64,000 bases of DNA from Lachnospiraceae bacterium (GTDB lineage Bacteria > Bacillota > Clostridia > Lachnospirales > Lachnospiraceae): NCBI GenBank assembly GCA_011959805.1, contig BLMC01000005.1, positions 1 through 64,000 on the forward strand. The letters are read 5' to 3'. Below are positions 47,755 through 64,000 of the stretch, one piece after another. Numbering within the stretch: position 1 is the first letter of the stretch; every line of letters starts with the position of its first letter. The translations under genes were made by a program, and so were the position numbers. The notes beneath the pieces are model-generated. The model made no database searches. It was given only the letters and a program-made list of their open reading frames with translations, and was not told the origin of the DNA.

Positions 47755-47825
47755 AGCAGGATACGGGAGTCGAACCCGCCTCCTCGGCTTGGGAAGCCGA
47801 TGTACTACCGATGTACTAATCCTGC
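47755..47825 (-). tRNA. tRNA-Gly (anticodon CCC)
   Basis: Read on the minus strand the sequence folds into a cloverleaf: acceptor GCAGGAT/ATCCTGC, D arm GTAC-ATCGGTA-GTAC, anticodon stem TCGGC/GCCGA with loop TTCCCAA (anticodon CCC, reading GGG), T arm GCGGG-TTCGACT-CCCGT. The discriminator is U, as usual for bacterial tRNA-Gly. CCA is not encoded. Confidence 0.95.
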
Positions 47826-47926
47826 AAAGCAAATATAGTATACCATGAAAATTAAAGAAATTGCAACCCCTAAAAGATTAAAAAAACATAAAATACATAG
47901 AGTAAGTTAGTTGCTTTTCACACCCA

Positions 47927-48212
47927 CGCCAAAGTAGTGGGAATCATGCGCCAAAATGCTAAAAGCTTTAGCATTTTGTGTGCAAAATCTGTTATAATTC
48001 ACACCTGAGGAACCTATAGGCTGATAAAAACTGGCATGGGTGTGAATTGTAACGTAAGTTACTGTTTATTTCAGTCGGAGAAGACGTCCGCTTCTATCAG
48101 CAGTGAGAAAACTACAATTTTGTCTCGATAGGAGTACAATTCTTGATTAAAATAAGCCTTTGGCACATTACAACAAGAATACCAATGACATTGTTAAATA
48201 GTCAATGACATT
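47927..48212 (+). repeat. Structured non-coding element, copy B, with hairpin cluster
   Basis: A 12-bp hairpin CAAAATGCTAAA/TTTAGCATTTTG (47952-47978), a stem AATTCACACC/GGTGTGAATT (47996-48005 with 48039-48048), then the element shared with 26.3 kb: TTTATTTCAGTC (48065-48076) pairing with GATTAAAATAAG (48145-48156) with one mismatch and G-U pairs, a GAGA/TCTC hairpin inside, and an AATACCAATGACATTGTT end. This may be the remnant of an IS200/IS605-type transposon end or its guide RNA, but no tnpA/tnpB is present. Confidence 0.55.
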
Positions 48213-48302
48213 TCCTTAAGAAATTAGATGAAAGCTGAATTATTATAATAAAAATAAATGGTTTTAGAATAGACTGAAGATGAAATAGACAGTTCCTAAG
48301 TA

Positions 48303-48331
48303 TTGCGAAAATAAAAGGGAATGTGTATACT
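48303..48331 (+). promoter_or_regulatory. Promoter of the DUF4132 array
   Basis: TTGCGA (48303-48308), 17-bp spacer, TATACT (48326-48331), about 90 bp before the first array gene. Confidence 0.65.
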
Positions 48332-48419
48332 ATGTTTAGAGAAATATTGGATTTTGAATAGAAATTACAGAAAATTCTATATAAAATGCGTTATAAATAA
48401 ACATAGGAGGTAAATTATT

Positions 48420-51400
48420 ATGACTGTGACATCAGACAACAAATTAATTGGCAGGATGCTTGATCTGCTAAACAAGTTAGGTATTTCACAGCGCGACTGT
48501 GACTTGGCAGAGAAGTATTTGCGCGAGGAAGTAGAGGATGAGGTTTTAGACAAATTTGTACGAAAAGATTTAAGTGTGCCATCTCGCAATCTATATTCTG
48601 AGGCATGGACAATTACAAGACAAGTAAACAAAACTAACAATCGAGCGGTATTTGTGCGTTTTTTTAATATAATTTTTGCGATTGGTCATGGCACAGGACA
48701 TCGTTTATTCTGGTATGAGGCGTTAAATATTGAGGAATATGCACTTTATAAAAAGATGGTTACATACATGTCGGGAGTAACAGAAGATGAAGAAAGTTTT
48801 TTTCAGTATAATGAGTATAGTCAATTAATGAAGATGGCACAGCACAATCCACAAAATCTGATAGAAGTCATTCCTTATTTAAAGGAGGAATCAGAATTGT
48901 ATGCGGCGGCAGGGCTGGCAATGTATTTTTGCAGAAAATACGAAAATCCTGGCACAGTGGAAGCAGAAGACGAGGCATATATGGCGGAATATGAGGACAT
49001 TGTACTAGAATGTTTTGATAGCTGGCTTGCAGGATTAGGCTGTGCTGCGCATGAGAAAGTAATATCAACTTTGCGGGAGAAAAAGCAGGCGGGCGATTTC
49101 ATTGGCAGGATTGAGCATACAAGTATGAAGATGGAGCAGCAGCGGACATTTTGTTTTCTGTGCACATTTGCATATCTAAATTTTCAGCTTTCTGATGTGC
49201 TGTTGGCGCTGATTCAGACATGTGCTGCTGTAAATGCGGAATTGATGCTTTTTTCCATACGTCATGTATTTATCGGGGACAATGGATGCAGAACTCATTT
49301 TGCTTTTCGTGGAATGGACTATGATGAATTGTTCCATATTGAACCAACTTTGTATATTTGTGCGGCAGCAAAAGACAATTATGACAAGATTTTAATTAGA
49401 CAGTTAGAAAAAAATCAGGAAAGTTATAAAAAGGTTATGGAGCGGGAAAAATGCCAGGAACTGGTTCATATTTATATGCGCGCTTGGAGGAATGGGATTC
49501 CGTGTGTTGTGTCCGAAGTTACGGAGGATGTACTTATTACACTAAAAGATGTTATGCAGAAGGCAAATCCTGATTTATATGAGCAAGTAGTGCGAAATGC
49601 AACACCCGATTATGAGCCAGTTATAGAATTTCTTGTGGCACCCACTCCCCATGCAGAGTTGGCAAAGGAGTATTTGCTTGGAAACTGTAAAGTTTCCGAT
49701 TTATATCCTTATGATAGAGAGTTTGGTGATGGTTTTGAAGATGGACTTTATCATGTAAATAAAATATTAAAAAAATTTAAAAAGCATAGCAATAATGAAG
49801 CATTTATCGATCGGTGTTGTGTATTTTTAATTTTGAGGAAGTTTCCGCATATTGAATATGAGGTGCAAGAGTGTAAAGGTGAGAAAGGATTCCGTGAATT
49901 TTTTGCAAATCTGGACAAGCAAGAGTTGGACCTTGTACATCAATTACAGGCATTTGCTTTATTATATAAAGAAAATCTTCGATATGATAATAAAATAAAA
50001 TTGCTTAAAAAGAGTGTTGAAGAAAAATTTACAAAGTATTTACAGGAAAATAGAGAAGAAGCCATACGAATGTTTGCAAAGGCAGACGCAGAAGCACGTT
50101 GCCTTGGTCTGTATCTTTTTGAAAAGGACCCACAATTTTACAAGCAAGAAATTCTAAACTACACAAAGGATAGCTCGAGTCTTGTTCGGCGTGAACTTGT
50201 CCGTATTATTGGCAGTCATAGAGAATGGGAAGAAGATGTCAAGACAATGTTAAATGGAAAGAAAGCATCAGAGCGGGAACTGGCAATTTGGATCCTATTA
50301 AGATGGCAGGAAAAAGGCGCGGATTATCATGAGTTGCTCTCTTGGGCGCTTGAGAACGAAAAGAGTGGCAAATTGGTGACATTGTTGGAGAAAGTGCTAA
50401 AAATACAGGAGAAAGATCAGTCTAAGAAATCAGTTACCAAGGAAGAATTGGTAAAACAATTACATCAGGGAGGAAGAAAAAGAACACTTGCATGGGCGTA
50501 TGAGACCCCATTTTCACCTGTGCATAAGACAGATGGAAGCATTGCAGACGAGGAGTATTTACAGGCAATTTTCTTGTGTTATGCGGCGCAGATACAACGC
50601 GGAATGAACGAGAATGTACAGCTTCTTGCGGCCGATTTGAATGTGGACGAATTTGCAGTTTATGTCAATGAATTGTTTGACAAATGGATTGCGCAGGGGG
50701 CAGAGGCGAAAAAAGATTGGGTGCTTTTTGCGGCGTCGATTCATGGCAAGGAAGATATAGTACCAAAGTTATATCATCAAATCCAGGAATGGACGAAGGT
50801 GTCGCGAGGAGCGATTGCGGCGGAAGCGGTAATGGCACTTGCGCTCAATTCATCTCCCAATACGCTGTTACTGGTGGACAGCATTGCGCGAAAATTTAAG
50901 CATAAGCAGGTGAAGGGTGGTGCGTTAAGAGCACTTGATGAGACCGCTAAGATGTTAGGGATTAGCCGTGAAGCGCTTGATGACCGTATTGTGCCAGATT
51001 TTGGTTTTGACAAGAACATGCAACGGACTTTTGATTATGGAGCACGTATTTTCAAAGTAACACTTACATCAGCGCTTGACTTTGAAATATTTGACGAATC
51101 TGGAAAAAAATTAAAAAATTTGCCTTCGCCAGGAAAAAAAGATGATGAAAGTAAGGCGGTAGATGCATATGCGGCATTTAAAGAAATGAAAAAACAGATA
51201 AAAGCGGCGATTACAAGTCAGAAGGAGCGCCTTGAACATGCACTTTCTATAAAGCGGGAATGGAGTACAGATGCATGGACAAATTTATTTGTAAAAAATC
51301 CATTGATGCATCAATTTGCAATTGGGTTGATATGGGGTATTTATGAAAGTGGAAAACTGGTTCAAAGTTTTCGTTATATGGGAGATGGTTCTTTTAACAC

Positions 51401-51986
51401 GCAGGATGGAGATGCGTATACACTACAAGAGGGAGTAAACATTAGTTTAGTACATCCAGTAGAACTTTCTGAGACAGAAAAAAAAGCATGGAAAGAACAG
51501 CTTGCAGATTATGAAACCATACAGCCAATTGAGCAGCTTGACAGGGATGTTTATCGTGTGATGGAGGATGAAAAGGATACAAAGTGTATGGAGCGCTTTG
51601 GAGGATCTGTGTTGAATGATTTCGCACTAGATAGTAAATTGGCGAATCTTGGTTGGTATCGCGGTGTTATCGGGGACGCAGGAAGTTATAACACATATCA
51701 CCGTAAAGATGCAGAGGTTAATATGGGTGTGGAGTTACATTTTTCAGGTAGCTGTGTAGGTTGGCATCAAGGAGATGTGACAGTGTATGATGCCAGATTT
51801 TATGAAGCGAAGTCGATTGGATATGGCAGCTATGGGTATGTGGATGCGGACAAGAAAGAGGCCTTTTTACTACAAGATGTGTCGCCAAGATATTTTAGTG
51901 AGATAGTGCGGCAACTTACAAAGGCAACTGCATCAAGCGATGAGCAAGATACAGATTGGAAGAAAGAAGCAGGACTGACACAATAA
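48420..51986 (+). CDS. DUF4132 protein, array member 1
   Basis: A 1188-aa soluble protein. N-terminal helical region (1-70, starting MTVTSDNKLIGRMLDLLNKLGISQRDCDLAEKYL), a long helical solenoid with HEAT-like pairs around 540-660 (SSLVRRELVRIIGSH, SERELAIWILLRWQ), a conserved block beginning GGRKRTLAWAYETPFSPVHKTDG (about 681), a second HEAT-like segment near 800-860, then the DUF4132 core (about 870-1170) with NLFVKNPLMHQFAIGLIWGIYE and FRYMGDGSFNT. E. coli YehI/MolR belong to this family; its biochemistry is not established. No catalytic motif, membrane helix or signal peptide is visible. AGGAGG lies before the ATG. Confidence 0.85.
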   Translation: MTVTSDNKLIGRMLDLLNKLGISQRDCDLAEKYLREEVEDEVLDKFVRKDLSVPSRNLYSEAWTITRQVNKTNNRAVFVRFFNIIFAIGHGTGHRLFWYEALNIEEYALYKKMVTYMSGVTEDEESFFQYNEYSQLMKMAQHNPQNLIEVIPYLKEESELYAAAGLAMYFCRKYENPGTVEAEDEAYMAEYEDIVLECFDSWLAGLGCAAHEKVISTLREKKQAGDFIGRIEHTSMKMEQQRTFCFLCTFAYLNFQLSDVLLALIQTCAAVNAELMLFSIRHVFIGDNGCRTHFAFRGMDYDELFHIEPTLYICAAAKDNYDKILIRQLEKNQESYKKVMEREKCQELVHIYMRAWRNGIPCVVSEVTEDVLITLKDVMQKANPDLYEQVVRNATPDYEPVIEFLVAPTPHAELAKEYLLGNCKVSDLYPYDREFGDGFEDGLYHVNKILKKFKKHSNNEAFIDRCCVFLILRKFPHIEYEVQECKGEKGFREFFANLDKQELDLVHQLQAFALLYKENLRYDNKIKLLKKSVEEKFTKYLQENREEAIRMFAKADAEARCLGLYLFEKDPQFYKQEILNYTKDSSSLVRRELVRIIGSHREWEEDVKTMLNGKKASERELAIWILLRWQEKGADYHELLSWALENEKSGKLVTLLEKVLKIQEKDQSKKSVTKEELVKQLHQGGRKRTLAWAYETPFSPVHKTDGSIADEEYLQAIFLCYAAQIQRGMNENVQLLAADLNVDEFAVYVNELFDKWIAQGAEAKKDWVLFAASIHGKEDIVPKLYHQIQEWTKVSRGAIAAEAVMALALNSSPNTLLLVDSIARKFKHKQVKGGALRALDETAKMLGISREALDDRIVPDFGFDKNMQRTFDYGARIFKVTLTSALDFEIFDESGKKLKNLPSPGKKDDESKAVDAYAAFKEMKKQIKAAITSQKERLEHALSIKREWSTDAWTNLFVKNPLMHQFAIGLIWGIYESGKLVQSFRYMGDGSFNTQDGDAYTLQEGVNISLVHPVELSETEKKAWKEQLADYETIQPIEQLDRDVYRVMEDEKDTKCMERFGGSVLNDFALDSKLANLGWYRGVIGDAGSYNTYHRKDAEVNMGVELHFSGSCVGWHQGDVTVYDARFYEAKSIGYGSYGYVDADKKEAFLLQDVSPRYFSEIVRQLTKATASSDEQDTDWKKEAGLTQ

Positions 51987-52026
51987 CGAATTAACTGTAG
52001 GCTTTGATAGAAAAGGGGACGCTACT

Positions 52027-55000
52027 ATGAAATTAAATAAAAATAGTTCGCCAATTGTGGAATTGTTTGCAATGTTACCAGAGCTAAAAGTTTCAGAACA
52101 GGAATGCGAACTGGCGAAGCAGTATCTAAATGGTGAAGTAGGAGACGAGGTGTTAGACCAATTTCAGCGCATTAATTACAAATCGATAGCAGATGTACGC
52201 GATGTGCGTTATGAACTGGACAGAGTCTTCAAAAGATTGGATAGAAAGGAAAATAGAGCAGTATGTATCCGACTGTTTAATCTGCTATTTGCAATTGGAC
52301 ATGCTTCCTGTGTTGAATTGTTTTATTTTGGTGGGGCTGCTGAAAGCTCCTTTGAGCAGGCACAGGAGTGTGCACTTTACAAAAGAATTATTATATTTAT
52401 TGAAAGATGGTTTCATTCTATCAGTAAGCACACATTAGGAAGCATACGAAAAATTGCGCAAAATAATCCTGAAAATCTGCGCAAAAGTATAAACTCGCTT
52501 AGAGAGGAGGGAAGCGATTATCTGTTGATAGTATTGATAGATTACTTCTCTATGAAATACGCAGGACAGACAACACTTTTAAAAAGTAATAATCCGACTG
52601 GAAAGATTGACCTTTCTGAAGATAGGGCGCTTTTAAAAGAGTATGAAGAATACCTATTAGAACGTCTTTATGAATGGTTGCAACAGCAAGCGTGTTTTGG
52701 GCGCGACAGAATTATCACTGCAATCCGTGACAATCAATTAACAAAAGAATTACTGAAAAATACAGTATCTGGTAGCAATCCTACCAATATACAGCGCAAT
52801 GAACTTTGTCAAATCGCCAAAATGGCATACTTAAATTTCAACCTTTCTAATATATTGCGTGATATAATAAGGGTTTGTTTTGCAGTGGATGCGCAAAAAG
52901 TTCTTTTTGCTTTTAGTGAGGTTTCAGAGGAACAAATAATCGACGATTTTGATAATTTGTTTTGGGTTGAACCAGATACGTTTATTCGTTGGGCAGCAGT
53001 TGAGAAGAATTTACCAATCTTAAAAAGACAGCTTGAGAAAAATCCAAAGGAGTATTTAAAGGCGATAGAAGAAAAGGGATACATCACCTATAAAGGGTTT
53101 ATAGAAGATTGGATTGATACTATTAATGTCTTAAAAGATGTGTTGAAAGAAGAAAATCTTTCTTTGTATGAACAGATTGGTGCCGCCAAACCATACTATG
53201 AGCAAGTTCTTTGTTATTTGGTGCCAGATACTCCACACGAGGAGCAGATACGAGCATATTTGCAAGGGCAGTGCAGTATTTCAGAATTGTATCCTTATCA
53301 GAAGGCATGTAAGACAAGATATAGTTCTTATGATTTTTTAGATGGTTATCAGAAGCATTGTAATGACACCGAATTTTTTGATAGATGTAAGGCTTATATT
53401 GTATTAACTGGCTCAAAGTACACAAGAGTTGTCGATAAAAAGACAAATGAAGTAGAGCAGGTAGAGCAGTTTTTTCAATTGCTAGACGCACAAAAGATGG
53501 ATATTGTGCATCAGCTAAATGGTTTTGTAGTGTCATACAAGGCGAATGACGAATGGCGTGGTTGCAAACTGGAACCGTATGTGGAGGGTGCTGCCAATGT
53601 ATTTGCGCAGTATCTAAATAGCGAACGGCGACAGGAAGCAATTGAAGCATTTTCTAATGCTGCGGCAGAGGGACGGTATCTTGGACTGCGTGCAATGCGA
53701 AAAGATATAACACACAATAGACAAGAAATTATGCAGTATGCGTCGGATAGCGCAAAGATTGTTCGGGAAGAACTTTTTGATATTTTGTGTGCTGCAAGTA
53801 AGCCGTTAAAGTCGCACACAGGTCATATGCAAGTGGAAGATTTGCAGGACTGGTTGGAGGATATTAAAATATTATTAGAGTCAAAAAAGGCACAACAACG
53901 AGAGTTGGCGGCACATGTACTAACACATTGGCAGCAGGAGGGAGGCAATTTCAATGAACTGTTGTTACAGGCAATAAAAAAAGAGAAGAATGCCAAAGTG
54001 TTAGCGGTTCTGCAAAATGCACTTTGTATTCAAGAGGGAAGTACATCTTTTAGTCCGCTTTCCAAGGAAGAGTTTGTAAAGCAGTTAAGTAGCGGCAGTG
54101 GCAAAAAAAGTTTGGCGTGGGGATATCAAAAACCATATTTTCCAGTGCACAAAATCAATGGCGAGGAGGTTTCCGAGGCGTATTTACAGGCAATTCTTTT
54201 GTGTTATGCCTCACAGGAAAGGAATGGTATCAGCAAAAATGCACAGTTGCTTGCAGACGATTTGCACTTTGCTGAGCTTGCTCTCTATCTGAATGAATTA
54301 TTTGATAGATGGCTTGCGCAAGGCGCAGAATCTAAAAAACATTGGGTGCTTTACGCAGCGGCAATTCACGGCGGTGAAGATATCGTTCAAAAACTGCAAC
54401 ATCAGATTCAGGAGTGGCCAAAGGCAGCAAGAGGAGCGCTTGCGGTGGAGGCGGTGTGGGCGCTTGCGTTAAGCCCATCGCCACGTGCACTGTTGCTTGT
54501 GGATGATATTGCGCGAAAATTTAAGTTTAAGCAGGTGCGAGCTGCTGCAGAAGAAGCGCTTATCTTTGCAGCTTCCGAGCTTGGTATTACACGCGAAGAA
54601 CTTTCGGACCGCATTGTACCTGATTTAGGATTTGATACAAATATAGAGCGAGTATTTAACTATGGTGAACGTAAGTTTACCGTTAAGCTTTCTTTCACAC
54701 TTGACCTTGAAGTATATGATGAAAATGGAAAGAAATTGAAAAGTTTGCCTGCACCAGGAAAGAAGGATGACGAAAGCAAGGCGGCAGCGGCTTACGAGGA
54801 TTTTAAACAATTAAAAAAACAGATGAAAACGGTTGTGCGTAGCCAGAAGTCACGTTTGGAATATGCGTTGTTAGTTCGGCGGGAGTGGCTTGCAAATGCA
54901 TGGACAAATTTGTTTGTGAAAAATCCATTAATGCATCAATTTGCAGTTGGTTTAATCTGGGGTATCTATGAGAAGGGAAAATTAATACAAAGTTTTCGTT

Positions 55001-55611
55001 ATATGGAAGATGGTTCTTTTAATACGCAGGATGAGGAAGTATATACACTGCCAGAAGATGCGCATATTAGCTTGATACACCCGTTAGATTTATCTGACGT
55101 GGAGAAAACAGCATGGAAAGAGCAACTTGAGGACTATGAGATTACACAGCCAATTGTACAGCTAGATAGAATGGTTTACAACCAAACAAAAGAAGAAGCA
55201 GACAAAAAAGGAATAGAGCGTTTTGGTGGCTGCGTAATCAATGCACTTTCGCTAAATGAAAAATTAACAAGACTTGGCTGGTATCGTGGTTCTGTGCAAG
55301 ATGGAGGGGGTTTTTATACATACTATCGCGAAGATATAGAGGTTAACCTTGGCGTGGAATTGCATTTTTCTGGCACGTTTGTAGGTGATATGGATGGTAT
55401 GGTGACAATTTATGATGTGCGTTTTTACAGGCCAGGAACAATTGAGCATGGCAGTTATCTCTATGATGAAGCGGACGCAGAAAAAGCGTATTTCTTAAAA
55501 GACATTCCTAAAAGATATTTTAGCGAGATTGTATTGCAACTTGCAGATGCTACGGCGTCAAGTGTAGAGTGCGACGAAGGTTGGAAAGTAGATGCAGATT
55601 TAATAGACTGA
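52027..55611 (+). CDS. DUF4132 protein, array member 2
   Basis: A 1194-aa paralogue of member 1, starting MKLNKNSSPIVELFAMLPELKVSEQECELAKQYL. The N-terminal 650 residues are clearly homologous to the others but highly divergent; from LAWGYQKPYFPVHKINGEE onward it is strongly conserved. It carries about 13 extra residues in the HEAT-like region (after DILCAASKPLKS). Its segment just before the DUF4132 core (IVPDLGFDTNIERVFNYG) is of the same type as member 4, not of neighbours 1 and 3. GGGGA precedes the ATG; it begins 40 bp after member 1 with no terminator between. Confidence 0.85.
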   Translation: MKLNKNSSPIVELFAMLPELKVSEQECELAKQYLNGEVGDEVLDQFQRINYKSIADVRDVRYELDRVFKRLDRKENRAVCIRLFNLLFAIGHASCVELFYFGGAAESSFEQAQECALYKRIIIFIERWFHSISKHTLGSIRKIAQNNPENLRKSINSLREEGSDYLLIVLIDYFSMKYAGQTTLLKSNNPTGKIDLSEDRALLKEYEEYLLERLYEWLQQQACFGRDRIITAIRDNQLTKELLKNTVSGSNPTNIQRNELCQIAKMAYLNFNLSNILRDIIRVCFAVDAQKVLFAFSEVSEEQIIDDFDNLFWVEPDTFIRWAAVEKNLPILKRQLEKNPKEYLKAIEEKGYITYKGFIEDWIDTINVLKDVLKEENLSLYEQIGAAKPYYEQVLCYLVPDTPHEEQIRAYLQGQCSISELYPYQKACKTRYSSYDFLDGYQKHCNDTEFFDRCKAYIVLTGSKYTRVVDKKTNEVEQVEQFFQLLDAQKMDIVHQLNGFVVSYKANDEWRGCKLEPYVEGAANVFAQYLNSERRQEAIEAFSNAAAEGRYLGLRAMRKDITHNRQEIMQYASDSAKIVREELFDILCAASKPLKSHTGHMQVEDLQDWLEDIKILLESKKAQQRELAAHVLTHWQQEGGNFNELLLQAIKKEKNAKVLAVLQNALCIQEGSTSFSPLSKEEFVKQLSSGSGKKSLAWGYQKPYFPVHKINGEEVSEAYLQAILLCYASQERNGISKNAQLLADDLHFAELALYLNELFDRWLAQGAESKKHWVLYAAAIHGGEDIVQKLQHQIQEWPKAARGALAVEAVWALALSPSPRALLLVDDIARKFKFKQVRAAAEEALIFAASELGITREELSDRIVPDLGFDTNIERVFNYGERKFTVKLSFTLDLEVYDENGKKLKSLPAPGKKDDESKAAAAYEDFKQLKKQMKTVVRSQKSRLEYALLVRREWLANAWTNLFVKNPLMHQFAVGLIWGIYEKGKLIQSFRYMEDGSFNTQDEEVYTLPEDAHISLIHPLDLSDVEKTAWKEQLEDYEITQPIVQLDRMVYNQTKEEADKKGIERFGGCVINALSLNEKLTRLGWYRGSVQDGGGFYTYYREDIEVNLGVELHFSGTFVGDMDGMVTIYDVRFYRPGTIEHGSYLYDEADAEKAYFLKDIPKRYFSEIVLQLADATASSVECDEGWKVDADLID

Positions 55612-55734
55612 TAAAAATAAAATAGTATATGAAACATATGCTGATTAAATATGTGTACATATAGTGGAGAATCTGTCACAAAAGCAGATGCAAAGAAGAT
55701 TCTGAGCGTTATTAATGAAAGGTGGATTATAAGA

Positions 55735-58700
55735 ATGGAAGTAAATGCAAACGACAAACAGATCAATAATATGCTAACATTTTTGGCAAAGTGTGGTGTG
55801 TCAACACAAGACTGTGCATTAGCGGAAAGATATTTGAATCATGAAGTAGGAGAGGAGGCGTTAGAACAATTTCAACAGATAAATTTTGCAGCAATGACTA
55901 TTCCATATTCAGAGAGAGAGGCATTTGACTCCATTATGAAGGAGCTGAATAGAAGTGAAAAGCGGGCGACCTGTATCCAGTTTTTAAATGTGTTGTTTGC
56001 AATTGGTCATGGCTCTTGTAGTGCACTATTGTCTCGAATCATTATTAAGGATGCGAAGGAATGTGCACTCTACAAACGAATTGTTTTATTTATAGAATTA
56101 GGAATAGAGTACACGGGATATCTACGTGTGTATGAATTACAGATTTTGATGGAAATGGCACAAAATAACCCTGAGATATTGCGCGAAACACTAGAACCAC
56201 TTAAGGAGGAGGGCACAAAATATTATCTGATAATGCTTGCTGTGTATTTTTGCATGAAATATGGAAAAGTACGACCGCTTGACGCAGAGGATATAGAGCT
56301 TATGAAGGCATATGAAGATGAGATGTTTGATTGGTTAAAGGAATATCTTGCACAGCAAGGATGTGTCACGCAGGAGGAAATTGTAACTGCAATTCGCACA
56401 CAAAAGCTTACAAGTCAACTGCTGGATGAAGTGCGTCAGGTGCGTCAGAGCCGATTGTTTGTAGAGCTTGCCCGCAAGCAGCTCTGTTTTCTAGGGAGTA
56501 TGGCGTATTTGAATTTTATGCTTTCTAATGTGCTGTTAGATGTGCTTAGAACATGTATGGCTATGGATGCGGAGTGGGTATTATGCACGATATCTGAGGT
56601 TTCGATAGGAACGCTGGATGCAAGCCGCAGAATAAAAAGCAAAGGCGGCGACTATGACACTTTGTTTTGGATTGAGCCAGAAACTTATATTCGTTGGGCA
56701 GCAGTTGAAGAATATACGCATATCCTAGAAAGACAACTTGAGAAAAACCAAGAGAGCTATTTAAAGGCTATGGATGAAAATGGTTTTGCATCGCTGTCTG
56801 TAAAGAAAAACCGAAATCCAGGAAACATATTGTATGTGGTAAATCAGATGAAGGATGTTGTACTAAAACAAAATCCTAGTTTGTACAAACAGATTGCAGG
56901 AAACTTTAATTATGATATAGTGATTGACTATCTTGTCAAGGATACGCCACATGCAGAGCTGGCAAGAGCCTATTTGCGGGGAGAGAGTAACATTACAGAA
57001 TTGTATCCATATGTAGAGGAGTTTTCAGGAAACTATGTTTCTCATAACTATATGAAACAACAGAAAAAGCATTGTGACAACAAGGAATTTTTTAACAGAT
57101 GTAAGGCATTTATGGTATTGACTTGTTCAGAAAATACAACAGTGGTAGATGATTGTTGGAGTACAGATTCATTGGAAGAAATAGAGAAGTTTTATCAAAT
57201 GCTCTGTGATGAAAATTTAGATATTGCTTATCAGTTTAATGGTGTTGTAGCATGTTACAGTGCTTATGATAATGCAATTGGATGCTCCTTGAGTACATTT
57301 GAGGAGGGGACTGTGGATGCATTTGCACGTTATCTAAACAGCGAGCGGAGAGAAGAAACCCTTGCGGCATTTTCAGGAGCAAAGGCAGAGGGCCGCTATC
57401 TTGGATTACTTGTTATGAAAAGAGATCCAGCGCGCAATCAACAGGAGATTTTAAATTATGCGATGGACAGTTCTAAGCTGGTGCGAGAAGAACTGCTAAC
57501 TATTTTATATGCGCAAAAAGATTGGGAAAATGAAATAAAGGAACTTTTGCAAGGAAAGAAAGCTGCGCAGCGAGAGATTGCAATACAGGTATTGGCACAT
57601 TGGCAGCAGGAAGGCAGCGATTACACAGAAGTGCTTAGACAGGCGATGGAGAAAGAGAAAAATGCAAAAGTGCTGACTTTGCTGCAAAGTGTACTGAATA
57701 TACAGAAAAGCGAAGCGTCAGAGGAAACGCTCTCCAAAGAAGATTTGGTGAAACAGTTACATAAGGGCGGCAAAAAGAAAAGTCTGGCTTGGGCATATGA
57801 AAAGCCATTCTCACCAGTGTATAAAACAGATGGTTCGGAGGCTTCCGAGGAATATTTGCAGGCGGTTTTACTTTGCTATGTGTCACAGGAAAAGAGTGGT
57901 GTCAATAAAACTGCACAGCTTCTTGCAGATGATTTGCAGCCAATACAGTTTGCTGTCTATGTCAACGAATTGTTTGATAGATGGCTTGCAGCGGGTGCAG
58001 AATCTAAAAAGCGCTGGGTTTTGTATACAGCGGCAATTCATGGCGGCGAGGATATAATACAAAAGTTACAACATCAAATACAAGAGTGGCCGCAGGCAGC
58101 AAGAGGAGCGATTGCGGCGGAAGCAGTGAAGGCGCTCGCACTAAATCCTTCGCCGCGTGCGTTGTTACTTGTGGATGGGATTGCACGAAAGTTTAAATTT
58201 AAACAGGTGCGGGCTGCGGCGGGAGAGGCGCTTGCGTTTGCGGCTTCTGAGCTTGGTATTACACGCGAAGAATTATCGGATCGTATTGTGCCTGACTTTG
58301 GCTTTGACGAAAATATGGAACGGACATTTGACTATGGTGAGCGCATTTTCAAAGTACAGATTACACAGACACTTGACTTTGAAATATACGATGAAAATGG
58401 AAAGAAACTCAAAAATTTGCCAGTACCGGGAAAGAAGGATGACAAGACGAAAGCAACAGCGGCTTATGAAGATTTTAAGCAGTTGAAAAAACAGATGAAA
58501 ACCGCAGTTACCAGCCAGAAGTCGCGGTTGGAATATGCACTGTCTGTTCGGAGAGAATGGCGTACAGAGGCATGGAAAAATCTATTTGTAAAAAATCCGC
58601 TGATGCATCAATTTGCAATTGGATTAATTTGGGGTATTTATGATGGGGATAAACTAATACAGAGCTTTCGTTATATGGAAGATGGTTCCTTTAACACGCA

Positions 58701-59280
58701 GGATGAGGAAGAATACATATTGCCAGAAGATGCGAACATTAGTTTGATACACCCTATGGAACTGACCGATACAGAGAAGGCAGCATGGATAGAACAGCTT
58801 GCGGACTATGAAATCACACAGCCGATAGAACAGCTTGACAGAGCAGTTTATTATATGACAGAGGAGGAGGCAGACAAGAAAGGACTAGAACGTTTTGGCG
58901 GATATCTTATCAATGACCTTTCGCTCAATGGAAAAATGTTAGGACTTGGCTGGTATCGTGGTTCTGTGTGCGATGCAGGCGGTTTTTATACGTATTATCG
59001 CGAAGACCCGGAGGCTGGTATTGGCGTGGAACTTTATTTTTCCGGTGCTTATATCGGTTATTCTGATGGGAATGTAACAATTTATGATGTCCGTTTTTAC
59101 AAGGCGGGAACAATTGAACACGGCAGTTATATCTATGACGAGGTAGATGCAAACAAGGCATATTTCTTAAAGGATATTCCACCGCGGTATTTTAGTGAGA
59201 TTGTGTTGCAGCTTGCAAGATTAACTGCGTCTTGTGGAGAACGGAATGAAGACTGGCGCAAGGATGCGAGACTGATATAG
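55735..59280 (+). CDS. DUF4132 protein, array member 3
   Basis: An 1181-aa paralogue starting MEVNANDKQINNMLTFLAKCGVSTQDCALAERYL. The start at 55735 is chosen because it aligns with the starts of members 1 and 4 and has AAAGGTGG about 10 bp upstream; the frame is open back to 55651 but those residues have no counterpart. Domain order is as in member 1: divergent N-terminal helical part, HEAT-like repeats, conserved LAWAYEKPFSPVYKTDG block and DUF4132 core. The pre-core segment (IVPDFGFDENMERTFDYGERIFKV) matches member 1's type. The spacer to member 2 is 123 bp with only a weak hairpin. Confidence 0.85.
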   Translation: MEVNANDKQINNMLTFLAKCGVSTQDCALAERYLNHEVGEEALEQFQQINFAAMTIPYSEREAFDSIMKELNRSEKRATCIQFLNVLFAIGHGSCSALLSRIIIKDAKECALYKRIVLFIELGIEYTGYLRVYELQILMEMAQNNPEILRETLEPLKEEGTKYYLIMLAVYFCMKYGKVRPLDAEDIELMKAYEDEMFDWLKEYLAQQGCVTQEEIVTAIRTQKLTSQLLDEVRQVRQSRLFVELARKQLCFLGSMAYLNFMLSNVLLDVLRTCMAMDAEWVLCTISEVSIGTLDASRRIKSKGGDYDTLFWIEPETYIRWAAVEEYTHILERQLEKNQESYLKAMDENGFASLSVKKNRNPGNILYVVNQMKDVVLKQNPSLYKQIAGNFNYDIVIDYLVKDTPHAELARAYLRGESNITELYPYVEEFSGNYVSHNYMKQQKKHCDNKEFFNRCKAFMVLTCSENTTVVDDCWSTDSLEEIEKFYQMLCDENLDIAYQFNGVVACYSAYDNAIGCSLSTFEEGTVDAFARYLNSERREETLAAFSGAKAEGRYLGLLVMKRDPARNQQEILNYAMDSSKLVREELLTILYAQKDWENEIKELLQGKKAAQREIAIQVLAHWQQEGSDYTEVLRQAMEKEKNAKVLTLLQSVLNIQKSEASEETLSKEDLVKQLHKGGKKKSLAWAYEKPFSPVYKTDGSEASEEYLQAVLLCYVSQEKSGVNKTAQLLADDLQPIQFAVYVNELFDRWLAAGAESKKRWVLYTAAIHGGEDIIQKLQHQIQEWPQAARGAIAAEAVKALALNPSPRALLLVDGIARKFKFKQVRAAAGEALAFAASELGITREELSDRIVPDFGFDENMERTFDYGERIFKVQITQTLDFEIYDENGKKLKNLPVPGKKDDKTKATAAYEDFKQLKKQMKTAVTSQKSRLEYALSVRREWRTEAWKNLFVKNPLMHQFAIGLIWGIYDGDKLIQSFRYMEDGSFNTQDEEEYILPEDANISLIHPMELTDTEKAAWIEQLADYEITQPIEQLDRAVYYMTEEEADKKGLERFGGYLINDLSLNGKMLGLGWYRGSVCDAGGFYTYYREDPEAGIGVELYFSGAYIGYSDGNVTIYDVRFYKAGTIEHGSYIYDEVDANKAYFLKDIPPRYFSEIVLQLARLTASCGERNEDWRKDARLI

Positions 59281-59353
59281 TTTTTAGAAGCCTATTTAAA
59301 GGAAAGCGGTTTTAAGGACAAAATAGACAATATGGAAAGGGAGAGATTTTGTC

Positions 59354-62300
59354 ATGGTAATAAACACAGAGGACAAGAGAATTATAAGAATGCTGACCTT
59401 TCTGGAAAAACTGGGTATTTCTGGACCAGACTACGCATTGGCAGAAAAGTATTTGGATGGCGGAGTTGGTGACGAGGTGTTAGACCAATTCCAGAGAATT
59501 GATTTTATGGCCGTCCAAATTCCAGATGAAGTGCTGCAAGAGCTTGATGCGATTGAGTGGGATATTGGACGAGGCGAAGGGTATCCATTGTGGATACGAC
59601 TATTTAATGTGCTGTTTGCGATTGGTCATAATACGAGCAGTGTTTTGTTTTCCCATAGTTGTGTGAACGGTGAGCGCTATAAAGCGATGGTAATTTATAT
59701 AGAAAAATGTTCTGAGGAAACAGGATATCTAAATAATCATCACAGGACTTGTTTTGATATGGGTGGACTGATGCATGAGATTGATAATAAACCTGAAAAA
59801 GTACGAGAAATTATAGCACAATTAAAAAACGAGGGAGCAAAATATTATTTGTCCATTCTAGCAGCGTATTTTTATAAAAAATATACAGAATCAGGACCAA
59901 TAGCAACTGAGGACGCGGAACTGATGCAAATGTATGAGGGGGGAATGCTAGATTGTCTTGACGAATGGCTGGCGCGGCAAAACTGTCCTACACAGGAAAA
60001 AATTGTGACTGCAATCCGCACACGGCAACTTACAAAAAAATTACTTGTCAATGTAAAACCATGTAATTTTACAGACGCTGACCGCAAGAAACTTTGTTTT
60101 ATTGGCAGTATGGCATATTTAAATGTTATGCTGTCTGAAATGTTATTGGATATTGTCAGGACATGTTTGGCTGTGGATGCAGAATGGATACTTCTTGCAA
60201 TGTCTGATGCGATAGATAAATCGCCAGATGCCAAAGATAGAATTGGACAAGATTATAGTGAATTGTTTTGGATTGAACCGGAAACATATATTCGATGGGC
60301 TGCCTTTGAGATTGCATATGCGTATGCGATACGTGGATATCATAAAGAATATGTATGTTCGGTTCAGATACCAATTTTAAAGAGACAGCTTGAAAGAAAT
60401 CAGGAAGGTTATTTAAGGGCATTAGATGAAAAAGGATACACAACTCTTCTTGCAAAAAAAGGATACAGATTGGATGAAGCAATTAGTTCTATTAATGTGT
60501 TAAAAGATATATTGCAGAAGGAGAATCCGGCTTTGTATGAAAAGATAGGTGCAGGAAAGCCAAATTACGAACAAATTATTTCGTATTTGGTTCAGGACAC
60601 ACCGCACGCAGAGTTAGCAAGAGAGTATTTGCGGGGATATGGAACGATTTCGGAATTGTATCCATATGAGGAGGAATTTTCTACAGCGCATATTTTCTAT
60701 GGCTATTTGGAGAACCATAAAAAGCATTGGAAAGATATCGCATTTCTCCATCGGTGTAAGACCTTTCTCGTGCTGATTGGTTCCGACCGCACAACCATTG
60801 TTGAGAAGCGTGACAAGGAACAAACAAAACAAGTGGAACAGTTTTTCCAGATGCTTGAGAATGAGAATTTGGATATTGCCCATCAAATCAATGGTTTTGT
60901 GGCATCATATAAGGCATATAACGGCCCAAAAGGATGCACAATTAAAACATTTGTAGATGGGGCAACAAATGTATTTGCCCGGTATTTGGACAGTAAACGG
61001 CGAGAGGAGACGCTTGCAGCTTTTTCCAATGCAAAGGCAGAAGGGCGTTATTTGGCGCTGCTTGCAATGTGCAAAGACATTGCGCGAAACAAACAGGAAA
61101 TTTTAAGTTATACATCGGACAACACAAAGATTGTCAGAGAGGTACTTTTGGATATTTTATATAAACAGAGAGACTGGGAAAATGATATAAAAGCTCTTTT
61201 GGATGCAAAGAAAGCAGCGCAGCGAGAATTGGCAGTGCAAGTGTTGGTGCACTGGCAGCAGGAGGGGAGCAATTATAAAGATGTGCTTTTACATGCAATG
61301 GAAAAGGAGAAAAATGCAAAGATTCGGTCCTTGATACAAAGTACACTTAATATACAGGAGTCCGACTTACCACAACAGACGTTTTCGCAGGATGAATTGA
61401 TAAAGCAACTACATAAAGGTAACAAAAAGAAAAGTCTGGCGTGGGCTTATGAAAAGCCATTTTTTCCAGTGCACAGAATAGATGGCAAGGAGGTTTCTGT
61501 GGAACATTTGCAAGCAATTCTACTGTGCTATATTTCGCAGGAAAAAAATGGTATTAGCAAAAACGCACAAATGCTTACAAAGGATTTGCAACCTACAGAG
61601 CTTACATTTTATATGAATGAGCTGTTTGACCGATGGCTTGTGGCGGGTGCTGAGTCAAAAAGGCGTTGGGTACTTTATGCAACGGCGATTCATGGCGGGG
61701 AGCAAATGGTGCAAAAGTTACAGCATCAGATACAGGAATGGCCTCGGGCAGCAAGGGGAACACTTGCTGCGGAAGCGGTGAGAGCACTTGCTTTGAGTCC
61801 ATCGCCGCGCGCATTACTTCTTGTGGATGAGATTGCGCGCAAATTCAAGTTCAAACAAGTAAAAGCAGCCGCCAAAGAAGCGCTTGAATTTGCGGCTTCC
61901 GAACTTAATATTACACGCGAAGAACTTTCTGACCACATAGTGCCTGATTTAGGGTTTGATACAAATATAGAGCGAGTATTTAATTATGGTGAACGTAAGT
62001 TTACCGTTAAGCTTTCTCCCACACTTGACCTTGAAGTATATGACGAAAACGGAAAAAAATTAAAAAATCTGCCTGCGCCGGGAAAGAAGGATGATGAAAC
62101 CAAGGCAGCGGCGGCGTATGAGGATTTTAAACAATTGAAAAAGCAGATAAAAACTACTATTAGTAGTCAGAAAGCGCGGTTGGAATACGCATTGTCTGTT
62201 CGACGAGAATGGTCTGTGGATGCATGGAAGAATCTGTTTGTAAAAAATCCATTAATGCATCCGTTTGCAATTGGATTAATTTGGGGTATTTATGATAAAG

Positions 62301-62938
62301 AGAAGTTGATTCAGAGTTTTCGTTATATGGAGGATGGTTCTTTTAATACACATGACGAGAAGGAGTACACAATGCCAAAAGATGCGCATATCAGTATGGT
62401 GCATCCTATGGAACTTTTGGATGAGCAGAAAGCCGCGTGGAAGGAGCAACTGAATAACTATGAAATTACGGTCCCAATCGAGCAGTTGGATAGGGCAGTC
62501 TACTACAGAACGAAGGAAGAAGCAGACAAAAAGGGATTAGAGCGTTTTGGCGGGTATCTTATCAATGACCTTTCTCTAAACAAAAAATTAACTGCGCTTG
62601 GCTGGCATCGTGGTTCTGTGCAGGACGAAGGAGGCTTTTATACTTACTATCACGAAGATTTAGAGATTGATATTGGGGTGGAATTACATTTTTCAGGTGC
62701 ATACGTCGGGGGTATGAATGATAATGTAACAATCTATGATGTCCGTTTTTACAAGGCCGGAACAATTGAGCGTGGCAGTTATGTCTATGACGAGGCGGAT
62801 GCGAAGAAGGCATATTTCTTAAAGGATGTTCCACCACGGTATTTTAGTGAGATAATACTACAATTGACAAAGGTGATATCAGTGAATGCGCAGCGGGACG
62901 AAAGCTGGCGGGAACAGGCAAAGTTAATAACGCTATAA
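59354..62938 (+). CDS. DUF4132 protein, array member 4
   Basis: A 1194-aa paralogue starting MVINTEDKRIIRMLTFLEKLGISGPDYALAEKYL. The same architecture applies. It has an insertion of about 20 residues after YIRWAAFEIAYAYAI (about 320-335) absent from the others. The C-terminal third is very close to members 2 and 3 (LAWAYEKPFFPVHRIDG, NLFVKNPLMHPFAIGLIWGIYDKEK), while the N-terminal half is roughly 40 percent identical by eye. GGGAGAG lies 8 bp before the ATG; 73 bp after member 3. Confidence 0.85.
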   Translation: MVINTEDKRIIRMLTFLEKLGISGPDYALAEKYLDGGVGDEVLDQFQRIDFMAVQIPDEVLQELDAIEWDIGRGEGYPLWIRLFNVLFAIGHNTSSVLFSHSCVNGERYKAMVIYIEKCSEETGYLNNHHRTCFDMGGLMHEIDNKPEKVREIIAQLKNEGAKYYLSILAAYFYKKYTESGPIATEDAELMQMYEGGMLDCLDEWLARQNCPTQEKIVTAIRTRQLTKKLLVNVKPCNFTDADRKKLCFIGSMAYLNVMLSEMLLDIVRTCLAVDAEWILLAMSDAIDKSPDAKDRIGQDYSELFWIEPETYIRWAAFEIAYAYAIRGYHKEYVCSVQIPILKRQLERNQEGYLRALDEKGYTTLLAKKGYRLDEAISSINVLKDILQKENPALYEKIGAGKPNYEQIISYLVQDTPHAELAREYLRGYGTISELYPYEEEFSTAHIFYGYLENHKKHWKDIAFLHRCKTFLVLIGSDRTTIVEKRDKEQTKQVEQFFQMLENENLDIAHQINGFVASYKAYNGPKGCTIKTFVDGATNVFARYLDSKRREETLAAFSNAKAEGRYLALLAMCKDIARNKQEILSYTSDNTKIVREVLLDILYKQRDWENDIKALLDAKKAAQRELAVQVLVHWQQEGSNYKDVLLHAMEKEKNAKIRSLIQSTLNIQESDLPQQTFSQDELIKQLHKGNKKKSLAWAYEKPFFPVHRIDGKEVSVEHLQAILLCYISQEKNGISKNAQMLTKDLQPTELTFYMNELFDRWLVAGAESKRRWVLYATAIHGGEQMVQKLQHQIQEWPRAARGTLAAEAVRALALSPSPRALLLVDEIARKFKFKQVKAAAKEALEFAASELNITREELSDHIVPDLGFDTNIERVFNYGERKFTVKLSPTLDLEVYDENGKKLKNLPAPGKKDDETKAAAAYEDFKQLKKQIKTTISSQKARLEYALSVRREWSVDAWKNLFVKNPLMHPFAIGLIWGIYDKEKLIQSFRYMEDGSFNTHDEKEYTMPKDAHISMVHPMELLDEQKAAWKEQLNNYEITVPIEQLDRAVYYRTKEEADKKGLERFGGYLINDLSLNKKLTALGWHRGSVQDEGGFYTYYHEDLEIDIGVELHFSGAYVGGMNDNVTIYDVRFYKAGTIERGSYVYDEADAKKAYFLKDVPPRYFSEIILQLTKVISVNAQRDESWREQAKLITL

Positions 62939-63004
62939 AGAATGTCGTATATTACAAAATATCGTGTTCATTTCTATTTGAGCCGCCAAGGATAGCATGG
63001 GAAA

Positions 63005-63013
63005 TGGTATAAT
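63005..63013 (+). promoter_or_regulatory. Extended -10 promoter before array member 5
   Basis: TGGTATAAT (63005-63013), a TGn-TATAAT extended -10, in the 201-bp gap between members 4 and 5. No good -35 is visible, which extended -10 promoters do not need. Confidence 0.4.
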
Positions 63014-63139
63014 GTATCTTTTCTTATTTTGGCATAAGACAAGTAAGTATGCACTGAATGTATTTGCATAAGAACTTAAAAATTTTAGAAAAAAGCGGGG
63101 GCAGTTAGAATAGATTTCATAGTGAAAGAGGAAGAAAGT

Positions 63140-64000
63140 ATGACAATGGAAGAAAACAAACAAGTGAAAGAAATGGTTACATTTCTGGAAAAATTAGGTT
63201 TTTCCAAGCAAAATTGTGCGCTGGCGGAAAAATATTTGAGTGGCAAATTTGGAGATGCGGTACTAGACCAATTTGAAAGAATTGAATTTTCAACGATTTC
63301 ACGAGATGTGCGTAACCAAGCAAAAGATTTTATGAGAAAATTAAATAGAGAAACTAAGGATGAAACTGCGATTCGATTGTTTCGTATTTTGTATGTGGCT
63401 GGTCACAACACTTGCGCTGAAGTGCTTTGCAATTGTACACATTCGATTTTTGATGTTAAAGAAATAGAACTCTATCAAAGAATGGCTATTTATATTCATC
63501 ATTACACAAAAAATACTTATTTTGCAAGTTTGACGACATCAGCGCAGTGGAATCATCTAGTAAAGATGGCAGATAATAATCCAGAACAAATTAAGGAGAG
63601 TATTGCGCTGCTTGAAGGTGAAGGACAAGAATATATTCTTGCTGCGTTGACCTTGTATTTTAACATGAAATATCAAAATTCCAATCAAATTGCAGAAGAA
63701 GATGTGGCGCTGATGGAATTATATGAGAATACACTGCTCGACTGGTTGGATATTTGCGTTGTAAGAAAGGAATGCACCAAGCGCATGGAGTTGCGGGATG
63801 CAATTCGCAACGGACAGCTCACAAAAGAACTCATATATTATATGAAAACACAATCTATGTCAAAAAGTGAATTGCAACATTTTATTGCGGTCTGCCGCAT
63901 GGCGTACTTAAATTTTCCGCGTTCCAATACGCTCAAAAACATTGTGAAATCTTGCATGTCTATTTATACGATAGCAGCGTTATTTGCGCTTGAAAATACA
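63140..64000 (+). CDS. DUF4132 protein, array member 5 (partial, runs off window)
   Basis: An open frame of 287 codons without a stop at the window edge. It starts MTMEENKQVKEMVTFLEKLGFSKQNCALAEKYL, which aligns directly with the N-termini of members 1-4, and keeps their landmarks (VLDQFERIEF, AIRLFRILYVAGHNTC, the MKY and DAIRNGQLTKEL segments). By homology it should be about 1190 aa. GAAAGAGGAAGAAAG precedes the ATG. Whether it carries the DUF4132 core cannot be seen here. Confidence 0.8.
   Translation, partial: MTMEENKQVKEMVTFLEKLGFSKQNCALAEKYLSGKFGDAVLDQFERIEFSTISRDVRNQAKDFMRKLNRETKDETAIRLFRILYVAGHNTCAEVLCNCTHSIFDVKEIELYQRMAIYIHHYTKNTYFASLTTSAQWNHLVKMADNNPEQIKESIALLEGEGQEYILAALTLYFNMKYQNSNQIAEEDVALMELYENTLLDWLDICVVRKECTKRMELRDAIRNGQLTKELIYYMKTQSMSKSELQHFIAVCRMAYLNFPRSNTLKNIVKSCMSIYTIAALFALENT

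Follow-up and report, generated by a model that had tools for sequence, protein, structure and literature searches.

Five DUF4132 genes arranged head to tail

The window analyzed here is a 64,000-nucleotide stretch from a Lachnospiraceae bacterium (assembly GCA_011959805.1, contig BLMC01000005.1, forward strand, positions 1–64,000). Its final 15.6 kb hold an array of large genes encoding DUF4132 proteins, which we call D1 to D5 (Table 1). Four of them are whole and the fifth is cut by the window end; the contig itself (78168 bp; G000:C5, where G000 is the genome under study) runs on past that point and completes D5, which starts with GTG at 63122 and ends at contig position 66691 (L007:1123-4692). 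The initial annotation of this DNA spoke of at least five giant paralogs. A search of the contig finds exactly five, all on the plus strand, followed by a minus-strand gene of 201 amino acids and by no further DUF4132, MoxR, VWA or SWIM gene on the contig. The length range first given for the complete proteins, 1181–1194 amino acids, holds for D1, D2 and D4 but not for D3, which has 1209 amino acids, or 1181 if counted from an internal methionine 28 codons in. The spacers D1/D2, D2/D3, D3/D4 and D4/D5 are indeed short (40, 39, 73 and 183 bp), and no terminator-like site was found in any of the four, in scans that overall ran at chance level (10 found against 10.9 expected; 2 found against 4.1 expected).

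All five proteins match the Pfam model PF13569 (DUF4132) at 172–189 bits (cut-off 27; E-value 1.7e-55 to 3e-50), in agreement with the DUF4132 core initially annotated. Besides DUF4132, there are no Pfam matches above cut-off in D1–D5, no NCBIfam matches for D1, D2 and D5, and no relatives of DUF4132 found in the PDB. The WGR domain of a MolR-type WGR-DUF4132 protein finds no match in D1–D4 (E-value up to 1) or in D5 (up to 0.1). HEAT_2 matches D3 weakly (E-value 0.031) and one relative somewhat better (0.002), with none listed for D1, D2, D4 and D5, so that the HEAT-like solenoid of the initial annotation receives a faint signal in D3 and nothing from the other four. A nucleotidyltransferase-like model (PF14540) matches D3 and D4 below cut-off (E-values 0.051 and 0.097) at about residues 718–818.

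The proteins are 46–63% identical in pairs, and the identity is unevenly spread. In 60-column windows of the paralog alignment it lies mostly between 0.2 and 0.65 in the N-terminal half and between 0.5 and 0.9 in the C-terminal half. The same contrast appears across 83 relatives, where the mean fraction of the most frequent residue is 0.33–0.49 in D4 residues 1–600 and 0.61–0.81 in residues 601–1194; the C-terminal 500 residues include many that are invariant. The proposed division into shared C-terminal and divergent N-terminal halves is thereby supported. The LAW.Y..P...V block is found in all five proteins, as first described, and W697 and V706 of the D4 block are invariant across the 83 relatives. 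Four genomes of the genus have shorter DUF4132 proteins (about 800–890 amino acids; L060, L062, L064, L066), from which a large part of the N-terminal half is missing.

Table 1. Position of the array genes and of two features of their upstream flank, in window coordinates
Feature	Position	Strand	Details
D1, DUF4132 protein, 1188 aa	48420..51986	+	PF13569 at 895-1079, E 5.6e-49; clade D1
D2, DUF4132 protein, 1194 aa	52027..55611	+	PF13569 at 901-1085, E 9.1e-54; clade D2
D3, DUF4132 protein, 1209 aa	55651..59280	+	PF13569 at 917-1101, E 8.2e-51; clade D3
D4, DUF4132 protein, 1194 aa	59354..62938	+	PF13569 at 900-1084, E 3e-50; clade D4
D5, DUF4132 protein, 1189 aa	63122..64000 (first 293 codons)	+	PF13569 at 897-1081, E 2.3e-54 (whole-protein search); clade D5
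Array leader, 131 bp	48289..48419	+	~83% identical to L044/L058/L076/L081; upstream homology with sister species ends at 48289
tRNA-Gly(ccc)	47755..47825	-	just upstream of the array

Age of the array and selection on its genes

Is the array the product of a recent local amplification, as was initially supposed? We built a tree of 73 proteins (genus loci plus chosen outgroups, with partial genes of at least 600 amino acids included) by a quick method that gave long-branch warnings. In this tree D1, D2, D3, D4 and D5 each cluster with copies from other species and not with one another. In relatives, D1-type copies open the arrays and D5-type copies lie toward their end, and the order in between is shuffled: G024 has D1-D4-D2-D5, G004 has D4-D2-D5 and one more type, and G001 has D1-D3-D5. 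At silent sites the paralogs are separated by distances of 1.25–2.4 in their C-terminal part; for the rest of the proteins the values are mostly larger or could not be computed. The ratio of nonsynonymous to synonymous substitution rates (dN/dS) against orthologs of the sister species G006 is 0.06–0.21 in every window measured, and in the N-terminal region between close orthologs it is 0.10–0.21. Because D1–D5 form ortholog clades, silent sites are near saturation and dN/dS is low, we read the array from these comparisons as old and under purifying selection rather than a recent burst. We reject recent amplification on account of the five clades with copies from other species together with silent sites at or near saturation. 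G006 and G036, near-identical to one another in the tree, have only a fragment of the fourth copy (677 or 643 amino acids) and no fifth.

The C-terminal half may owe some of its similarity to gene conversion. In third-position quartets compared with G006, which has a similar GC content at third codon positions (GC3), the signal shifts to a within-genome pattern at residues 700–1010; for D2/D3 the ratio of ortholog to paralog quartets is 23:23 there against 116:15 in residues 0–700. Restricted to synonymous codons, the test gives three Fisher values of 0.03, 0.05 and 0.08 from pairs that are not independent, and comparisons with G024 and G001 are confounded by differing GC3. We regard homogenization of this half as only suggestive.

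DUF4132 genes have multiplied in other lineages too. Three copies each are present in L108, L111 and L113, and two each in L114, L119, L120 and L131; L096 also has three, and the G210 contig on which it lies gives four matches. Their placement in the tree, where some of these rows are long-branched, suggests separate events. Eight loci of the genus (L042, L045, L047, L052, L053, L054, L056, L059) show a second, separate tandem DUF4132 pair, beside a gene for a fumarase C-terminal domain; this fumarase-linked pair was not found by the DUF4132 search of the genome under study.

A single-copy chassis with a multiplying putative partner

Elsewhere in the genome, contig C128 carries a complete operon of MoxR, DUF5682, VWA and SWIM genes plus a gene for a small protein, c4, about 65 bp after which the contig ends. 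We call this set chassis A and, with the DUF4132 proteins, system A. Its Pfam matches (AAA_5, DUF5682, VWA_CoxE and SWIM) are all above cut-off. The MoxR protein is 48% identical to E. coli YehL, the VWA protein 42% to YehP and the DUF5682 protein 24% to YehM; the SWIM protein is 34% identical to YehQ over 86 amino acids only. The operon thus brings together homologs of yehL, yehM, yehP and yehQ and is of the YehL type. Genome searches find genes of these kinds only on C128 and on contig C1, and not on the array contig.

In most of the testable loci of relatives the two parts lie together; L078 (Lachnospiraceae bacterium A4), for example, carries three array genes adjacent to the chassis. Of 183 confirmed candidate loci we kept 80, which represent 70 distinct loci, and in these the DUF4132 genes come after an operon of MoxR (AAA_5), DUF5682, VWA_CoxE, SWIM and often c4. 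At least 2.2 kb of upstream sequence is available for 56 of the 70, which we treat as testable, and less than 2.2 kb for the other 14. A SWIM gene lies upstream on the same strand in 44 of the 56, and c4 without SWIM, within the stretch examined, in 3; two of these three belong to G006 and G036, whose SWIM gene appears in L044/L058. The initially annotated link to MoxR, VWA and SWIM genes is supported: this genome has them on contig C128, and relatives have them next to their DUF4132 genes.

The chassis proteins keep the motifs of their families. In the MoxR proteins these are Walker A, two acidic residues at Walker B, and sensor and RRF motifs; the VWA proteins retain residues resembling a metal-ion-dependent adhesion site, and two CxC-CxH motifs occur in the SWIM protein. 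We assume for all of these their customary meanings. The DUF5682 proteins are harder to place. H, E and G-x-H motifs align by eye with what we take to be the TIKI/TraB/ChaN-like pattern, and in a superfamily scan 8 of 33 match ChaN (best E-value 0.012; below cut-off where shown) and 2 of 33 match TraB (best 0.027). However, 9 of 33 also match an unrelated exonuclease model (best 0.01), and the TIKI/ChaN-like signal is no stronger. The search for PDB relatives of DUF5682 returned only one ribosomal protein, at an E-value of 1.4.

How closely do array and chassis travel together? Among 38 genomes of the genus, DUF4132 occurs in 21, with 70 matches. With a class of about 1700 amino acids (8 matches) and a G029 match of 47.6 bits set aside, the class of D1–D5 has 61 matches in 17 of the 38, from 1 to 7 per genome and more than one in 15. 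The copy-number comparison called for at the outset thus finds neither a universal single-copy gene nor proteins lacking the DUF4132 match. The same 17 genomes, and no others of the genus, contain DUF5682-A, VWA-A (71–100% identical) and SWIM-A, each once per genome, counting DUF5682 and SWIM genes found in two pieces in some genomes and VWA genes that are partial in G019 and G032; G029 has in addition a 95-residue SWIM remnant with stops. MoxR-A (83–100% identical) occurs once in 16 of the 17 and is missing in G011, where no more than 3 bases separate the DUF5682 match from a contig end.

The pattern extends to the family. Among 299 genomes, nearly one per genus, with classes divided by frame length and score, DUF4132 occurs in 34 and DUF5682 in 28. 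The 1200-amino-acid DUF4132 class and DUF5682-A are found in the identical 13 genomes (p-value 5e-23, ignoring relatedness). Two assignments were close: G134, with a truncated DUF5682 at the score border, was put in class B without context, and for G317, likewise a borderline case, the neighboring genes confirmed class A. A pairing of the 1700-amino-acid DUF4132 class with DUF5682-B was tried and rejected: the 22 genomes of the former (one with a protein of 1487 amino acids) and the 19 of the latter share only 3 (p-value 0.15). In a phylum sample of 299 genomes, DUF4132 occurs in 7 and DUF5682 above cut-off in 5, and in G400 and G439 the genes stand in a row as MoxR-DUF5682-VWA-DUF4132-SWIM.

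A second system of this kind, system B, lies on contig C1 of the genome under study and consists of a SWIM gene, two tandem genes for HEAT-type proteins, and genes for MoxR, DUF5682-B and VWA. It shares with system A the four chassis families and a tandem-duplicated partner. The MoxR, DUF5682 and VWA proteins of the two systems are 25–41% identical, and the SWIM proteins give no BLAST match at an E-value of 1e-3. The partners differ: those of system B have 656 and 660 amino acids, are 53% identical to each other, and show no detectable homology to DUF4132 (hhalign probability 0.3, with an alignment, A4, of only 2 sequences). HEAT_2 is above cut-off in one relative of this solenoid (E-value 1.9e-6, L157), below cut-off in three others shown, and without a match in the second copy of the genome under study. 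Within the genus, 18 genomes have a single DUF5682-B, and VWA-B likewise occurs once in each of 18. Of the 18 with DUF5682-B, 17 have the solenoid, with 1 to 7 matches (some being fragments of a single gene), and 12 of these 17 give more than one; in the remaining genome, G030, DUF5682 lies at a contig start. A single-copy chassis with a multiplying partner is therefore seen twice in one genome, since systems A and B both show it.

The neighbors of the array resemble housekeeping and sporulation genes. The downstream flank is collinear with that of sister species (74–87% identity per aligned piece), and the 201-amino-acid gene next to D5 is, from its sequence, probably a gamma-type carbonic anhydrase. 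Farther downstream lies a gene of PRTase_2-TRSP type (L007:5613-6842; contig C5 67612-68841), and genes of this type (cluster c3, assigned through a Pfam run on the L048 member) stand near DUF4132 genes in five more genus loci (L039, L044, L048, L058, L067). The PRTase_2-TRSP family belongs to Ter-type stress operons. Upstream of the array, an element of about 146 bp (window positions about 47903-48053) recurs at two places in the congener G029 at 86–88% identity and is perhaps a dispersed repeat involved in rearrangement. A sixth DUF4132 gene of the genome (L008:1-1029, contig C155) is cut by the contig start and clusters with the 1700-amino-acid class; it adjoins genes resembling tatD and ksgA.

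Interpretation and relation to known systems

What would five half-shared proteins do with a single chassis? We propose, giving it about an even chance, that they make up, in expanded form, the partner component of a YehL-type MoxR system, in which one MoxR/VWA machine would serve several specialized solenoid clients or adaptors. Using the VWA protein as its adaptor, the MoxR ring would bind and remodel the common C-terminal half of every DUF4132 protein, while each long N-terminal solenoid would bind its own target. Given a common docking half and separate N-terminal targeting halves, one ATP-driven machine could therefore be aimed at several specialized targets. A division of this sort is the simplest reading of one chassis with half-shared partners. 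The purpose would probably be assembly, repair or stress-time remodeling of cellular complexes, as has been proposed for RavA-ViaA and other MoxR-VWA pairs.

Several observations weigh against this proposal. The array does not adjoin the chassis in the assembly (431 contigs, 86.5% complete), and its upstream homology with sister species stops 131 bp before D1, near a tRNA-Gly gene; either array and chassis have truly come apart in this species, or a misjoin in the assembly has separated them. Among the testable loci of relatives, 9 of 56 have no chassis gene upstream. G337 and G481 of the phylum sample have DUF4132 frames of about 1100–1240 amino acids, no DUF5682 match, and no chassis gene within the 12-kb stretches read. 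The co-occurrence p-values take no account of relatedness. The solenoid fold of the DUF4132 proteins is weakly supported by the HEAT_2 matches, and toward MoxR/VWA these proteins may be clients, adaptors or effectors.

The DUF4132 proteins might instead be catalytic effectors that the MoxR/VWA chassis merely matures, several copies giving several substrate ranges. The invariant residues of the C-terminal 500 positions would suit an enzyme, as would the sub-cut-off PF14540 matches of D3 and D4, and PMC3893208 treats MoxR proteins as maturation factors. We nevertheless find this rather unlikely: DUF4132 is the only family reached above the Pfam cut-off, the NCBIfam and PDB searches described above add none, and in system B an undetectably related HEAT protein fills the same place.

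We also think it unlikely that the genes form a conflict or immune-type system, as the initial annotation suggested, with N-terminal halves recognizing invaders, a C-terminal domain that kills or signals, and a MoxR/VWA pair that licenses it as in the ternary systems. One would expect of such a system the patchy distribution seen here (17 of 38 congeners), the varying copy number, and the variable N-terminal beside constant C-terminal halves. Moreover, PMC10910872 counts vWA-MoxR-VMAP ternary systems among conflict systems, PMC7159879 lists HEAT repeats among their effector-position domains, and the bpMoxR model is passed by MoxR-B (29.1 bits over 54 residues; cut-off 27) and approached by MoxR-A (24.0). 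Yet N-terminal dN/dS between close orthologs is low, orthologs are kept across species, and the neighborhood seems to be of the housekeeping and sporulation kind. A search of 50,697 phage records gave no match, and one of 72,556 plasmid records gave 20, all of them covering no more than 80% of the query; on these grounds a mobile element was also rejected. PADLOC gives no match for D1, D2 and D5 (E-value up to 1) or for D3, D4, MoxR, DUF5682 and VWA (up to 0.01), no family for the C155 protein, and for SWIM a weak Cmr3 match (E-value 0.0086, 13.1 bits) that we take for chance. Ordinary neutral duplication or a gain in dosage, with no division of labor, is very unlikely: tandem duplications do arise often, and the sister genomes have a truncated fourth copy, but the lineages persist as orthologs across species at low dN/dS, and DUF5682-A, VWA-A, SWIM-A and MoxR-A stay unduplicated in the 17 genomes, the G029 remnant apart.

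Returning to the proposal of an expanded partner component, it can be widened to what may be called "one motor, many receptors." The solenoid slot is filled by DUF4132 in system A and by another HEAT family in system B. In array and system B alike the solenoid varies and the chassis is fixed; that solenoids carry specificity is therefore a testable idea. More broadly, and somewhat short of an even chance in our judgment, a single MoxR-VWA-SWIM-DUF5682 machine may be steered by a repertoire of HEAT-type solenoids with a shared docking half and distinct targeting halves, in a slot that is open to unrelated families and alone expands. If right, this would explain how a single MoxR ATPase could serve several targets, and it would be a general principle of bacterial MoxR systems, one that we did not find in the literature searched.

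According to PMC3893208, in which YehL is one of the MoxR subfamilies named, MoxR proteins generally act together with a VWA protein as cofactor and are regarded as maturation factors of a chaperone-like kind. RavA-ViaA and other MoxR-VWA pairs resemble the present systems in joining a MoxR AAA+ protein with a VWA cofactor. Their clients, however, are LdcI and Nuo subunits, and the accessible part of that source names no DUF5682, SWIM or DUF4132 partner (PMC3893208). Likeness to the ternary conflict systems lies in MoxR and vWA as a motor pair (PMC7159879, PMC10910872). Of the VMAP and beta-propeller genes that belong to those systems, none was recognized here by scans that used no VMAP-specific model; no beta-propeller was matched among the proteins scanned. 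The main text of PMC7159879 makes no mention of DUF4132, DUF5682, Yeh or MolR.

Other reports on DUF4132 are scattered. Deinococcus DRA0166, which contains DUF4132, is reported to be strongly upregulated on DdrO depletion (PMC8533742), and a single-gene insert tied by its authors to a WGR-associated domain, perhaps DUF4132, lies in a stress-islet hotspot of Listeria (PMC5541211). Both may fit a stress role, loosely. The idea of a molybdate role traces to two sources, the old gene name MolR and a single comment, in PMC8533742, that molybdopterin biosynthesis may involve DRA0166.

Among the closest known systems is the yeh region of E. coli, where the K-12 gene order is yehF-yehH(pseudogene)-yehI-yehK-yehL-yehM-yehP-yehQ. 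Our literature search found no functional paper on yehLMPQ or yehI, and most of the listed mentions of yehI or molR have unrelated meanings. The 7.4-kb region has a partial match in 5370 of 5426 E. coli genomes and a match to at least 80% of its length in 4057. In ST131 subbranch L1a the resistance transposon TnMB1860 sits in the DUF4132 region (PMC9334617), which is therefore interrupted there. The DUF4132, MoxR, DUF5682, VWA and SWIM families are all present; a broken yehH lies beside yehI, and other strains annotate a further DUF4132 gene in that place. There are differences. In E. coli the DUF4132 genes precede the MoxR gene, whereas here, in relatives, they follow the chassis; E. coli has yehF, with PF05406 (WGR, PMC5541211), and there is none here; five intact DUF4132 genes stand against yehI and a broken yehH in K-12; and the match to YehI is only 31% identical, over 325 amino acids. 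Because E. coli holds the same component families, the kind of system, DUF4132 with MoxR, DUF5682, VWA and SWIM, is already known. What is new here is the five-fold array, its age, its exact co-distribution with the chassis, and a solenoid slot that alone expands, in two families without detectable homology.

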